From Chitinophaga terrae (ex Kim and Jung 2007) (GTDB lineage Bacteria; Bacteroidota; Bacteroidia; Chitinophagales; Chitinophagaceae): a stretch of DNA of 64,000 nucleotides. The DNA lies in assembly GCF_900107795.1 (NCBI RefSeq), contig NZ_FNRL01000014.1, positions 62,001 through 126,000 on the forward strand, read 5' to 3'. The notes beneath the pieces are model-generated. The model was not told where the DNA came from and searched no databases. It was given only the letters and a program-made list of their open reading frames with translations. The position numbers were made by a program, and so were the translations under genes. Shown piece after piece: positions 57,624-61,813 of the stretch. Each line of letters starts with the position of its first letter. Positions within the stretch are counted from its first letter, which is position 1.

Positions 57624-59732
57624 ATGTTTACCATGACCAACTTCTATCCCGGGTGCCAGAATGAAATTAACCTGGCACTTATTGAACCTACGTTATTGTT
57701 TAAACAACAAATAGTAAAAGCGATCAGTTGTGTTGTGTTGTTCTTTATTCTTTACGTGGTTCTTTTGCTTGCAGCCTTGGCCCTGGCTGTAACCTGCATT
57801 TCGGGAGGTGCGCTGTTGTTTCGCACTTATCCTGGCTGGATCACCGGCGCAATAGGTTTAAGCCTCATTGTGCTGGGAGGCATGGTATTGTTTTTCCTCT
57901 TAAAATTCATGTTCAGCAAAAAGGCGGCAATAAATCCTTATCGCGAAGAATTGCTGGCAGATCATCATCCTCACCTCTTCGATTTTATCAGGCAATTGGT
58001 AAGAGATACCCGTATCCGTTTTCCCAAAAAAATTTTCCTGGTGCCCGATACCAATACCGGCATGTACGATGATTCCAACTTCCTGAGCCTTTTCTGGCCT
58101 GCAAGGAAAAACCTGGAGATAGGCATAGGCCTGGTGAACAGCGTCAATCTCAGCGAATTTAAGATGCTGCTGGCCCACGAATTTGCGCACTTCTCCAAAA
58201 GAAGCATGAAACTGGGCAGCTATATCTATACTTTAAACAAACGATTATATAGCCTGTTGTATGAAAATGAACAATGGGATGAGATAGAAGCCAGGTGGCA
58301 GCAACGCAATCATTTACTCAGCTTCTATGCCCATATTACTACAAGGATATTGCATGCCATACAGTTTATCTTAAAGAAAGTATATACTGTTACCAACCGC
58401 CAGTACCAGCAACTCAGCAGGGAAATGGAATGGTATGCAGATACCATAGCCGTTAACCTGACAAGTACTGATTCGGCAATAGGAGCCGTCAGGCGGCAGG
58501 AAATGGGCGCGTATTGCCTGGACCACTGTTTTCATAAAATGCCCAATCTGACTGACAGGTCGCTGCGTTTCGATAATATTTTCCGGGTACAACGGGCGCT
58601 GATCCACTACTACGCCACGCAGCACAACCTGCAGCTGGACGAAGCAGCGCTGCCCGTAATCACAGACCATTATTTCCAGGCATTCCTGAAAAGCAGGGTG
58701 CAACTCCGCGATCAGTGGACCTCTCACCTGGTCAGGGAAGCAAGAGAAAGCCATTTCAGGAACACGGCCATCTCCTGCAATGCGTCACCGCTCAGCGCCT
58801 GGGCTTTGTTCTCTGAACCCGAAGAGATCCAGCGGAAAATGACCGACCAGATCTATGCACTGACCACTCCCAGCGCCAGTAATTTTGAGCGGATCACCGC
58901 CGACGAATACATCAGCGAGTTGGCGGGGAAGCACCAGTTATATGAATTCCCACCTGTTTTTAACGAGTATTACGACAACCGCAACTTCAGCGAATTCAAT
59001 GAAGGGTTTATTCAGCCCCTGAGCGCTGAAGAGCTGGCGGGATTAAGTACAGGCGTTATTTACAGCCCGGAATGCGTATTGAGGATGCGGACATTGTACC
59101 GTGACCGCCAGGATGCCGAAATGCTGGGAGCTATCAGCAAAGGAGAGATTAAGACCAGGTATTTTGAGTTTGACGGGCAGAAATACAGCGCTCCCCGGGC
59201 CAGGCAGTTATCCCGGATGCTTTGGGAACATGTGGATAAAGAGCAGGAATGGCTGAAACAACACGACCAGCTGGCATTCCGTTACCATTATACTATTGCC
59301 AGGCAGGAAAGCCAGGAAATTGCGGACCTGCTGGCAGAGCAGTATACCGAGATCCTGAAATACCAGCAAAGCGGGCAACAACTGAATAACCAGGTTATTA
59401 AACTGATTCACTGCATCAGCCTGATCTTCAACAGCGTAGAACAACATCCGGCCGATCTCTATGAAACTTTATCAACAGAATGCTGGAATTTCAAAATGTT
59501 GCTGAACCAGATCACGAATTCCCCTATATACCATTCCTTCCCGGAAGAAATGGATAACAGGATCCGTACGTTCAGGGAACAGGGCTGCCGCTTTGCAGAC
59601 GATATAATACCTGACTACGTGGCGATCCAATCCCTGCATGAAATTTCTTCTTCCTTAATGGAACATTATAACAGCGGTATTATATTACTGAAAAAAACAT
59701 ATCTGGACTTCCTGCTGACGCTTGAACCGTAA
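57624..59732 (+). CDS. M48-family metallopeptidase
   Basis: A 702-aa membrane protease with two hydrophobic segments (about 33-60 and 71-97). The zinc motif HEFAH is at residues 185-189, and a downstream EMEWYADTIAV should supply the third ligand. A long C-terminal region (about 290-702) of no known domain is mostly helical. The HtpX/Ste24-like family degrades membrane or misfolded proteins. The target is not known. An alternative start is Met4. Confidence 0.88.
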   Translation: MFTMTNFYPGCQNEINLALIEPTLLFKQQIVKAISCVVLFFILYVVLLLAALALAVTCISGGALLFRTYPGWITGAIGLSLIVLGGMVLFFLLKFMFSKKAAINPYREELLADHHPHLFDFIRQLVRDTRIRFPKKIFLVPDTNTGMYDDSNFLSLFWPARKNLEIGIGLVNSVNLSEFKMLLAHEFAHFSKRSMKLGSYIYTLNKRLYSLLYENEQWDEIEARWQQRNHLLSFYAHITTRILHAIQFILKKVYTVTNRQYQQLSREMEWYADTIAVNLTSTDSAIGAVRRQEMGAYCLDHCFHKMPNLTDRSLRFDNIFRVQRALIHYYATQHNLQLDEAALPVITDHYFQAFLKSRVQLRDQWTSHLVREARESHFRNTAISCNASPLSAWALFSEPEEIQRKMTDQIYALTTPSASNFERITADEYISELAGKHQLYEFPPVFNEYYDNRNFSEFNEGFIQPLSAEELAGLSTGVIYSPECVLRMRTLYRDRQDAEMLGAISKGEIKTRYFEFDGQKYSAPRARQLSRMLWEHVDKEQEWLKQHDQLAFRYHYTIARQESQEIADLLAEQYTEILKYQQSGQQLNNQVIKLIHCISLIFNSVEQHPADLYETLSTECWNFKMLLNQITNSPIYHSFPEEMDNRIRTFREQGCRFADDIIPDYVAIQSLHEISSSLMEHYNSGIILLKKTYLDFLLTLEP

Positions 59733-59760
59733 GATCGCGGCCTTAATCTTACCCGTTATT
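59729..59760 (+). terminator. Possible terminator after M48 gene
   Basis: A 7-bp stem (GTAAGAT / ATCTTAC) that includes the stop codon, followed by a T-rich run. Confidence 0.4.
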
Positions 59761-59816
59761 TTTCTCTTAGTGAATTTGTGCGTATTTTCGACGCTCGCGA
59801 AAGCGTAAGCAGTTAT

Positions 59817-61721
59817 ATGGAGAATTTTATCGTTTCAGCCCGAAAATATCGTCCACAAAATTTTTCAACAGTTGTAGGACAAGCACATATTACCACTACA
59901 TTAAAGAATGCCATACGCAATCACCAGTTAGCGCATGCCTTTCTGTTCTGTGGACCAAGGGGGGTAGGTAAAACTACCTGTGCGCGTATTTTAGCTAAAA
60001 CAATTAACTGTGAGAACCTGCAGCCAGACGGGGAAGCATGTAACCAGTGCCATTCCTGTACTTCGTTTAACGAGGGCAGTTCCTTCAATATACATGAACT
60101 GGATGCGGCGTCTAACAACTCGGTAGACGATATCCGGACGCTGGTAGAGCAGGTACGTTTCGCTCCCCAGGCCGGAAAGTATAAGATATATATAATAGAC
60201 GAGGTGCACATGCTTAGCTCCTCGGCTTTCAACGCTTTCCTGAAAACGCTGGAAGAACCGCCTTCCTACGCCATATTTATATTGGCTACAACGGAAAAGC
60301 ATAAGATCCTGCCAACTATCCTGAGCCGATGCCAGATCTTTGATTTCAAACGGATCACCATCCAGGATACGGTAGATCACCTGCAGGAGATCTGCAACAA
60401 AGAACATATACAGGCCGAACCCGATGCCCTGCACCTGTTAGCGCAGAAAACAGATGGTTGTATGCGCGACTCGCTCAGCACACTGGATAAGATCGTGAGT
60501 TTTACCAGCGGGCACCTGACCTACCAGAATACCCTTGAGCATTTGAATATCCTGGACTACGACTACTTTTTCAGGGTAATGGAAGCTGTTTTGCAACAGG
60601 ATGTTGCCAACGCTTTATTAATTTTTGATGAAGTATTGAGGAAAGGGTTCGAAGGAGATAACTTCCTGAACGGATGGGCGGAGTTCCTGCGTAACCTGTT
60701 GTTATGCAAGGAAGAAAAAGCCCTGCACCTGGTGGAAGTTTCGGGCAACCTGAAAGACCGGTATAAACAGCTTTCGGGAAGAGTAAGTCCTGCTTACCTG
60801 ATCACCGCCCTTAATTTGCTGAATGAAACGGAGATCAACTACCGTATGGCCCGCAACAAGCGTTTGCATGTGGAAATGGCGTTGATCAAGCTCTGTTACC
60901 TGCAGCAGGCGGTATTGTTAGTGGGAGATGATAGTAATGGAGAAGTAGCAAAAAAAAAACTAGTTCCTGATGGCAGTGCGCCGCAAAAACTGCGAGCGCC
61001 TGGCGCTCAACCAGTTACGGCTAAAACGATAGTTAAACCGGCTACCACGGAAACCATTGCACAACAGGCGGCAACGGCAGCCCCTGTGGCTCCGGCTCCG
61101 ATGCCGCCTTCACCGGTAACCGCTCCACCGGTTCAACCGGCAGCTGCCAGTCAACCTGCCACCGTACCGGCGCCGCCTCCTGTAAGTCAACCGGTTGCTG
61201 CCCCGGCGGCTCAACCAGCTCCCGCTCCCGCAGCTACAACAACTGCCAGTGCGGCTACGCCTAAGCTCACAGGATTGGCAGCCATGAAAGAAGCTATGGC
61301 CGCCAGGCAACAGACCAATACACAAACCCAATCGCTGCCGCTTACATTAGGCGCGCTGCATGTGTACTGGGAAGAATTTATTGATCTGTACCGGCAGGCC
61401 AATAAAATGACGGTAGTAAGCAACCTGCAACTGGCGCAACTGAAGCTGATGGAGGGAAAGAAGGATGAAATAGGTATTGTCAGCCGCAACATTGTACAAT
61501 TCCGGTTCATGGAAGAGGAAAAGCTGGTAATAGCCGACTTCCTGAAAAAGCGGTTCAATAACCCGGGTATCGTACTGACCTTGCTGTTAGATGAAAGTCA
61601 GCAGCAGCAGGATATAGGCCCGGCGCCATTATCAGCCAAGGAACAGTTCCTGCAGATAGCTGAAAAATACCCGCTGGTGAAGGAGCTGAAAGACCGCCTG
61701 AATATGGAGCTGGATTTCTAA
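59817..61721 (+). CDS. dnaX: DNA polymerase III subunit tau (and probably gamma)
   Basis: The 634-aa clamp-loader ATPase of the replisome. The P-loop GPRGVGKTT is at about 45-53, followed by the zinc knuckle CNQCHSC, the DEVHMLS Walker B region and the clamp-loader domain III to about residue 375. An Ala/Pro/Gln-rich linker (about 385-500) leads to a C-terminal tau domain. A run of ten A (60950-60959) sits at the end of domain III, and a shift either way stops at once. A GTG at 59778 opens the frame, but the ATG at 59817 (MENFIVSARKYRP) is the family start. Confidence 0.95.
   Translation: MENFIVSARKYRPQNFSTVVGQAHITTTLKNAIRNHQLAHAFLFCGPRGVGKTTCARILAKTINCENLQPDGEACNQCHSCTSFNEGSSFNIHELDAASNNSVDDIRTLVEQVRFAPQAGKYKIYIIDEVHMLSSSAFNAFLKTLEEPPSYAIFILATTEKHKILPTILSRCQIFDFKRITIQDTVDHLQEICNKEHIQAEPDALHLLAQKTDGCMRDSLSTLDKIVSFTSGHLTYQNTLEHLNILDYDYFFRVMEAVLQQDVANALLIFDEVLRKGFEGDNFLNGWAEFLRNLLLCKEEKALHLVEVSGNLKDRYKQLSGRVSPAYLITALNLLNETEINYRMARNKRLHVEMALIKLCYLQQAVLLVGDDSNGEVAKKKLVPDGSAPQKLRAPGAQPVTAKTIVKPATTETIAQQAATAAPVAPAPMPPSPVTAPPVQPAAASQPATVPAPPPVSQPVAAPAAQPAPAPAATTTASAATPKLTGLAAMKEAMAARQQTNTQTQSLPLTLGALHVYWEEFIDLYRQANKMTVVSNLQLAQLKLMEGKKDEIGIVSRNIVQFRFMEEEKLVIADFLKKRFNNPGIVLTLLLDESQQQQDIGPAPLSAKEQFLQIAEKYPLVKELKDRLNMELDF
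60950..60959 (+). promoter_or_regulatory. A10 slippage site in dnaX
   Basis: Ten A residues read as (GC)A AAA AAA AAA. A -1 shift or one extra A leads to a TGA at 60968-60970 after Thr-Ser-Ser. Loss of one A leads to a TAG at 60961-60963. Either would give a product of 381-384 aa, the size of a gamma subunit. A GGAG lies 8 nt upstream and hairpins lie at 60973-60993 and 60994-61008. Confidence 0.65.
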
Positions 61722-61781
61722 AACCTGTCTGATAGATTATTAACGTACAACATACATTTTTAAACAGTTTGCAATTCCTTC

Positions 61782-61813
61782 TTTGCGTTTTTGCGCAAAA
61801 ACTTGTAGGTTTG
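61782..61813 (+). promoter_or_regulatory. Promoter of the E2 gene with internal palindrome
   Basis: TTTG (61782-61785), 20 nt, then TAGGTTTG (61806-61813). The spacer contains a 16-bp perfect palindrome GTTTTTGCGCAAAAAC (61787-61802), suitable as an operator. Confidence 0.6.

Follow-up and report, generated by a model that had tools for sequence, protein, structure and literature searches.

A putative transcriptional slippage site in dnaX of Chitinophaga terrae and its conservation among Bacteroidia

The dnaX gene in the window (the whole 64-kb stretch of DNA analyzed here) contains a run of ten A residues that we propose is a programmed slippage site. We estimate a probability of about three in four that slippage at this run is mainly transcriptional and yields a short gamma protein (381 to 384 amino acids, 43 kDa) beside full-length tau (634 amino acids, 70 kDa). 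Considered separately, slippage at the run is well supported, and a transcriptional rather than ribosomal level of slippage is probable. In the proposed mechanism, RNA polymerase would slip on the A10 run and generate dnaX mRNAs with varying numbers of A residues. Messages with A10 or A13 would be read through to the end as tau. Ribosomes would meet a TGA in the -1 frame on A11 messages and a TAG in the +1 frame on messages with A9 or A12. Either stop would terminate gamma just past the clamp-loader domains, such that a single gene would encode both gamma and tau.

The A10 run and its predicted products

The tau frame of dnaX occupies positions 59817 to 61721 of the plus strand, which also carries all of the dnaX features described below, and comprises 634 codons plus a stop, beginning with the ATG at 59817. 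Its best NCBIfam match is the DnaX model NF011531 (PRK14971; 751.8 bits over residues 1 to 633). The N-terminal clamp-loader part (residues 1 to 372; 59817 to 60932), in which Pfam matches extend to residue 364, is common to tau and the predicted gamma. The putative slippage site lies at 60950 to 60959 and reads GCA AAA AAA AAA CTA in the 634-codon frame. It encodes residues 378 to 381, 14 residues beyond the Pfam match to domain III (residues 246 to 364); because domain III ends at residue 364, a product that stopped at the run would retain the clamp-loader part but lack the linker and C terminus of tau. This tau-only portion, which has homologues in the shifted frame of relatives, spans 60960 to 61721, including the stop. 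The zero frame is open through the run to 61721, and tau is thus encoded in a single frame. The first stop in the +1 frame, which would be reached from an A9 or A12 mRNA, is the TAG at 60961 to 60963, and the first in the -1 frame, which would be reached from an A11 mRNA or by a -1 ribosomal shift, is the TGA at 60968 to 60970.

An initial annotation of this DNA had described the A10 run with stops in both other frames, and both are confirmed in the sequence. It had also predicted a gamma of 381 to 384 amino acids and roughly 42 kDa. The predicted length agrees with our in silico products, which are 381 amino acids ending in AKKN for an A9 mRNA, 384 ending in AKKKTSS for A11, and 382 ending in AKKKN for A12, but the predicted mass was too low: the computed values for gamma are 43.2 to 43.4 kDa. 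The A10 product, tau, has 634 amino acids and a computed mass of 70.1 kDa.

By itself, the run is not unusual. It is the sole run of at least nine A residues on either strand of the window, and dinucleotide shuffles of the window matched or exceeded the observed number of A9 matches in 77 of 100 cases, making the dnaX run alone unsurprising for 64 kb. The 6.63-Mb genome has 14 distinct A10 sites (17 overlapping matches), four of which we read as sense-strand sites within genes: dnaX and genes encoding LigD, an amidase, and a SusC/TonB-like protein, the last three names being read from the protein. As judged by codon resampling, it is the conservation of the run together with its stops, not the run itself, that goes beyond chance.

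Conservation of the run and of stops in the spare frames

We examined this conservation at two depths. Among the best 80 of 155 relatives, the nearest named ones are Chitinophaga species, and from these we compiled a Chitinophaga set of 34 loci (L018 to L051, a few of them under other names). The second set, a Bacteroidia sample in which 131 loci represent 48 family codes, was assembled from homologue searches with dnaX residues 1 to 372 as the query. It comprises all 49 class members of a first draw (L098 to L146) and a further 82 loci (L198 to L279), of which 22 were returned by the search and 60 were hand-picked among the matches listed so as to cover many families, with attention also to short frames. 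Two loci were excluded before counting, one too short (L082) and one cut off (L068). Null expectations were obtained by resampling codons while leaving the protein sequence and the codon usage of each gene unchanged. The resampling maxima given below overstate independence because the species are related; we reduced this effect of kinship with a 75 percent dereplicated set and with counts of one locus per family.

In the initial annotation, breakage of the run by synonymous changes in close relatives was to count against the proposal. This is not what we found: runs of A9 to A10 are kept in 33 of 34 Chitinophaga loci (A10 in 23, A9 in 10, A7 in 1), and resampled Chitinophaga genes retained at least nine A residues in a mean of 8.8 and a maximum of 16 of 33. 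Across Bacteroidia, 116 of 131 loci have a run of at least nine, exactly A10 in 91, and 42 of the 48 family codes include at least one such locus; in the first draw the proportion is 47/49. After dereplication, the run is present in 37 of 38 genes with tau in frame, compared with a resampled mean of 13.5 and a maximum of 22 (1,000 draws). Fourteen of the 131 loci, including some relatives with intact tau, have no run of 8 or more, and the run is therefore dispensable in some lineages. Among the best 80 of 155 relatives, Bacteroides and Phocaeicola loci lack the A-run, and outside the class, 7 of 21 loci from the phylum (L147 to L167) have a run of at least nine while 14 have no run of 8 or more.

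In several Bacteroides and Phocaeicola loci (within L076 to L096), a sequence close to GGTGGGCGTAGCCCTAAA replaces the A-run at the homologous junction, and this GGTGGGCGTAGCCCTAAA-like junction has a possible short GGGC/GCCC hairpin and adjoining -1 stops. In Chitinophaga sedimenti (L051), the junction has only A7 and the zero frame closes six bases past the run, possibly through an assembly error.

The stops flanking the run are kept well beyond expectation. Within three codons of the run in 33 Chitinophaga genes, a -1 stop is present in 33 (null mean 7.0, maximum 13), a +1 stop in 32 (null mean 11.8, maximum 19), and both stops in 32 (null mean 2.5, maximum 7; 300 resamplings each). Among the Bacteroidia genes with tau in frame, both stops lie within five codons in 57 of 77 (null 15.1, maximum 22), and the -1 stop, the best-kept feature, does so in 77 of 77. 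The dereplicated genes give 28 of 38 for both stops within five codons (null 6.5, maximum 13). Counting one locus per family, we found a -1 stop no more than 15 nt away in all 34 families, a +1 stop in 27, and both in 27. Of 22 other Chitinophagaceae-like genes, 21 have the -1 stop within three codons (null 6.7); the +1 stop alone, present in 10 of 22 (null 8.3), is not enriched at that distance.

Codon choice next to the run is consistent with this pattern. The Chitinophaga -1 TGA arises from [GC]CT-GA[TCA] in 34 of 35 rows, the window included, with L051 as the exception. The +1 TAG arises either from CTG-GTA or from CTA or TTA followed by any valine codon, and the Leu/Val pairing that keeps it is visible in the valine codons: GTA is used in 17 of 19 cases after CTG and in 5 of 15 after CTA or TTA (p 0.001, a nominal value given that the species are related).

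The initial annotation had suggested selection on stops in both frames, and codon resampling bears this out. A chance origin of the run and stops is ruled out by the same resampling. A general excess of hidden stops is ruled out by 6,111 other positions in the same dnaX genes, where off-frame stops occur at 0.85 to 0.99 of the null. That any conserved A-run would behave in this way is ruled out by the amidase run (A9 to A10 in 13 Chitinophaga genes), which has both stops within five codons in 0 of 13 (null 2.6); fused ligD genes with at least A9 likewise have both stops within five codons in only 1 of 14 (null 0.6). For closely related species, a conserved run carries little weight by itself, as the amidase gene also shows: 13 of its 28 Chitinophaga copies have A9 to A10, with no stop enrichment.

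These two genes were also surveyed in their own right. The ligD gene has an A-run at the linker between its phosphoesterase and ligase parts, in this genome (L280; G000:C44:46524-47432 and on) and in other Chitinophaga loci (L281 to L309). The reading frame of the ligase part varies across these 30 loci: 19 carry it in frame (14 with at least A9), 6 in the -1 frame (5 with A9 or A10, 1 with A8), and 1 in the +1 frame (A7), and in 4 it was not found downstream. The ligase part is also in the -1 frame in 3 of 17 class loci (L341 to L343). In one locus (L306), an overlapping ATGA makes translational coupling a rival explanation. We considered ligD as an equal second case and rejected it on the count of both stops; it remains a lead. 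The amidase-like gene, of the N-acetylmuramoyl-L-alanine type (L310 to L322; this genome's own copy at G000:C20:126304-127542), has its run, AAT AAA AAA AAA, near the C terminus.

Split relatives and the shifting tau frame

In 40 of the 131 Bacteroidia loci, dnaX is split: no more than 8 codons separate the run from the end of the zero frame, and a tau frame of 190 to 235 codons is open in the -1 frame (37 loci) or the +1 frame (3 loci). With the tau C terminus in another frame, these loci could yield tau only through a shift at the homologous run. The split arrangement is found in both parts of the sample; in the first draw, tau is in frame 0 in 26 loci, -1 in 20, and +1 in 1, with no run in 2, and in the remaining 82 loci the corresponding numbers are 51, 17, 2, and 12. 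A search with a profile of tau C termini placed them in exactly the expected shifted frame in each of 41 split genes, among them L097 from the best 80 of 155 relatives. Both spare frames, here the zero and the third frame, are closed within five codons in 33 of 40 split genes (null 6.6, maximum 13).

The position of the tau frame appears to have changed repeatedly. Each of eight families contains more than one arrangement, and a quick one-gene tree, in which 47 of 113 inner branches have support below 80, implies at least 15 tau-frame changes; for this tree, L244 was labeled -1 by hand, and loci without a run were left out of the frame count. Gain or loss of a single base in the run is enough to turn one arrangement into another, so individual split cases could be assembly errors. 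However, A10 is present in 31 of the 37 genes with tau in the -1 frame, and the recurrence of an A10 split state in related genomes is not easily explained in this way. Many relatives thus require a shift for tau, and the arrangement in the window is one of three interchangeable states. It has been noted for slippage with an efficiency near 50 percent that a single nucleotide can be enough for the products to exchange roles (PMC5009743).

One locus stands apart. L244 (G366) has no A-run, and its zero frame ends at the junction, followed by a 206-codon -1 frame; an assembly error is possible. Its relatives L118, L267, and L276 have A10 to A11 at the dnaX junction.

Transcriptional or ribosomal slippage

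The nearest described case is dnaX of Thermus thermophilus, in which transcriptional slippage is reported on an A9 run (PMC5009743, PMC1088944). As described there, tau occupies one frame, the A-run has at least nine residues, stops lie nearby in both other frames, and gamma is the short product, all of which recur in the window, gamma there as a predicted product. The Thermus type is further characterized by mRNAs with variable numbers of A residues and by gamma and tau near 1:1. The window gene differs in having A10 and in belonging to another phylum; its run also follows the clamp-loader domains directly, 60 percent of the way along the gene, rather than at seven-eighths, the position given for Thermus (PMC1088944). 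A second precedent comes from Antonov et al. in 2013, who reported split dnaX genes from 12 genera, 17 in all and nine of them with A10, and proposed transcriptional realignment for those (PMC3711429). These genes, with A-runs, gamma in the zero frame, and tau made by a shift, resemble 40 of our 131 loci, whereas in the window tau is read in the zero frame; the A10 species of that report may include Bacteroidetes.

Several features point to the polymerase, namely runs of at least nine, the use of all three frames, and the keeping of stops in both spare frames. Shifts in both directions among orthologues have been given as a criterion for transcriptional realignment (PMC3711429). A situation with two lysine tRNAs has been connected with slippage in Thermus (PMC5009743), and among 30 of the 63 tRNA loci examined here we found four tRNA-Lys(UUU) and one tRNA-Lys(CUU). 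In the same genome, ARAGORN also reports a tRNA with anticodon TTA, which reads UAA (L175:1314-1388, minus strand; G000:C56:169649-169722), adjoining a Thr/Gly/Tyr/Thr tRNA cluster; with a T-run in its anticodon arm, it resembles a degenerate copy more than a clear suppressor.

The most serious alternative, though in our judgment an improbable one, is that the mRNA is uniform and ribosomes shift to -1 on A_AAA_AAA and stop at the TGA at 60968, in the style of E. coli dnaX. In E. coli, a -1 ribosomal frameshift on A_AAA_AAG is reported to give gamma and tau from one gene, with a stop soon after the shift (PMC5009743, PMC3711429), aided by a Shine-Dalgarno (SD)-like stimulator and a stem-loop. 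The window has the A_AAA_AAA heptamer in frame, with the TGA nearby, and AAG is the last codon in some relatives. It differs in that both spare frames are closed and in that neither stimulator is clearly present. A GGAG tetramer of doubtful role lies 5' of the run (60939 to 60942). SD-like tetramers at this place are slightly more frequent than expected in the 33 Chitinophaga genes, 25 of which have one (null mean 20.7; a count of 25 is reached in 71 of 1,000 resamplings), and in other Chitinophagaceae loci (10 of 21, null 6.7), but there is no excess across the class (15 of 96 loci, null 18.2), and Bacteroidia ribosomes are reported not to recognize SD elements (PMC9976891). Downstream of the run, the region tested for a stimulatory hairpin (60960 to 61045) is not clearly structured (z of -1.02; 32 of 200 shuffles as stable). 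Mean z values in 73 representatives are -0.35 and -0.51, and a weak folding signal at +3 to +83 appears in the 33 Chitinophaga genes (mean z of -0.99, control -0.36). An Rfam search over 59700 to 61800 gave no dnaX match and returned only SNORA55, below its cutoff.

The direction of the shift is less discriminating. The split genes are biased toward -1 (37 versus 3), and the -1 stop is nearer to the run and better kept than the +1 stop, as a ribosomal -1 shift would also produce. The bias fits polymerase slippage as well, because one added A is the commonest product reported in Thermus (PMC5009743). Against the ribosomal explanation, a shift in one direction leaves the kept +1 stop and the three genes with tau in the +1 frame unexplained, the runs of nine or more are longer than the 6 or 7 A residues needed, and the genome has two kinds of lysine tRNA.

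It is very unlikely that the run simply encodes a lysine-rich linker with no second product. The zero frame does encode KKK, and such A-runs arise by chance in 64 kb, but the synonymous choice of AAA, the stops in both frames, and the split relatives all argue against it. Least likely of all is DNA-level phase variation, in which run length would vary between cells so that some make tau and others gamma: relatives do differ in run length and tau frame, even inside families, but length 10 dominates, and cells lacking tau would not be expected to persist, given that dnaX belongs to the core replication genes.

With polymerase slippage as the favored mechanism, the window dnaX joins a known kind, represented by Thermus and by the split genes reported in 2013 (PMC3711429). 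Judging by titles and the opening lines of abstracts in the open-licence literature, we found no paper, PMC3711429 apart, on dnaX slippage in Bacteroidia or on ligD slippage, and in the same material the class-wide extent, measured selection on stops, and drift of the tau frame within families were not found in print. More tentatively, and with odds we place somewhat below even, RNA polymerase slippage on A9 to A11 may be the general route to gamma and tau in Bacteroidia, whose ribosomes are reported not to read SD elements. Slippage would supply each of the three frames, and the tau part could for that reason have drifted among frames 0, -1, and +1 while the spare-frame stops were kept, and ligD in Chitinophaga may use the same trick to give a phosphoesterase-only form and a fused form.

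These observations bear on how dnaX is read and on why two forms are made. Split dnaX genes in Bacteroidia may be annotated as gamma only. With ribosomes reported to ignore Shine-Dalgarno elements, Bacteroidia dnaX provides a natural test of transcriptional versus ribosomal recoding. Whether gamma is a real part of the replisome has long been disputed in E. coli (PMC5009743); that a whole class keeps a slippery run together with stops in the spare frames argues for selection on making both forms there.
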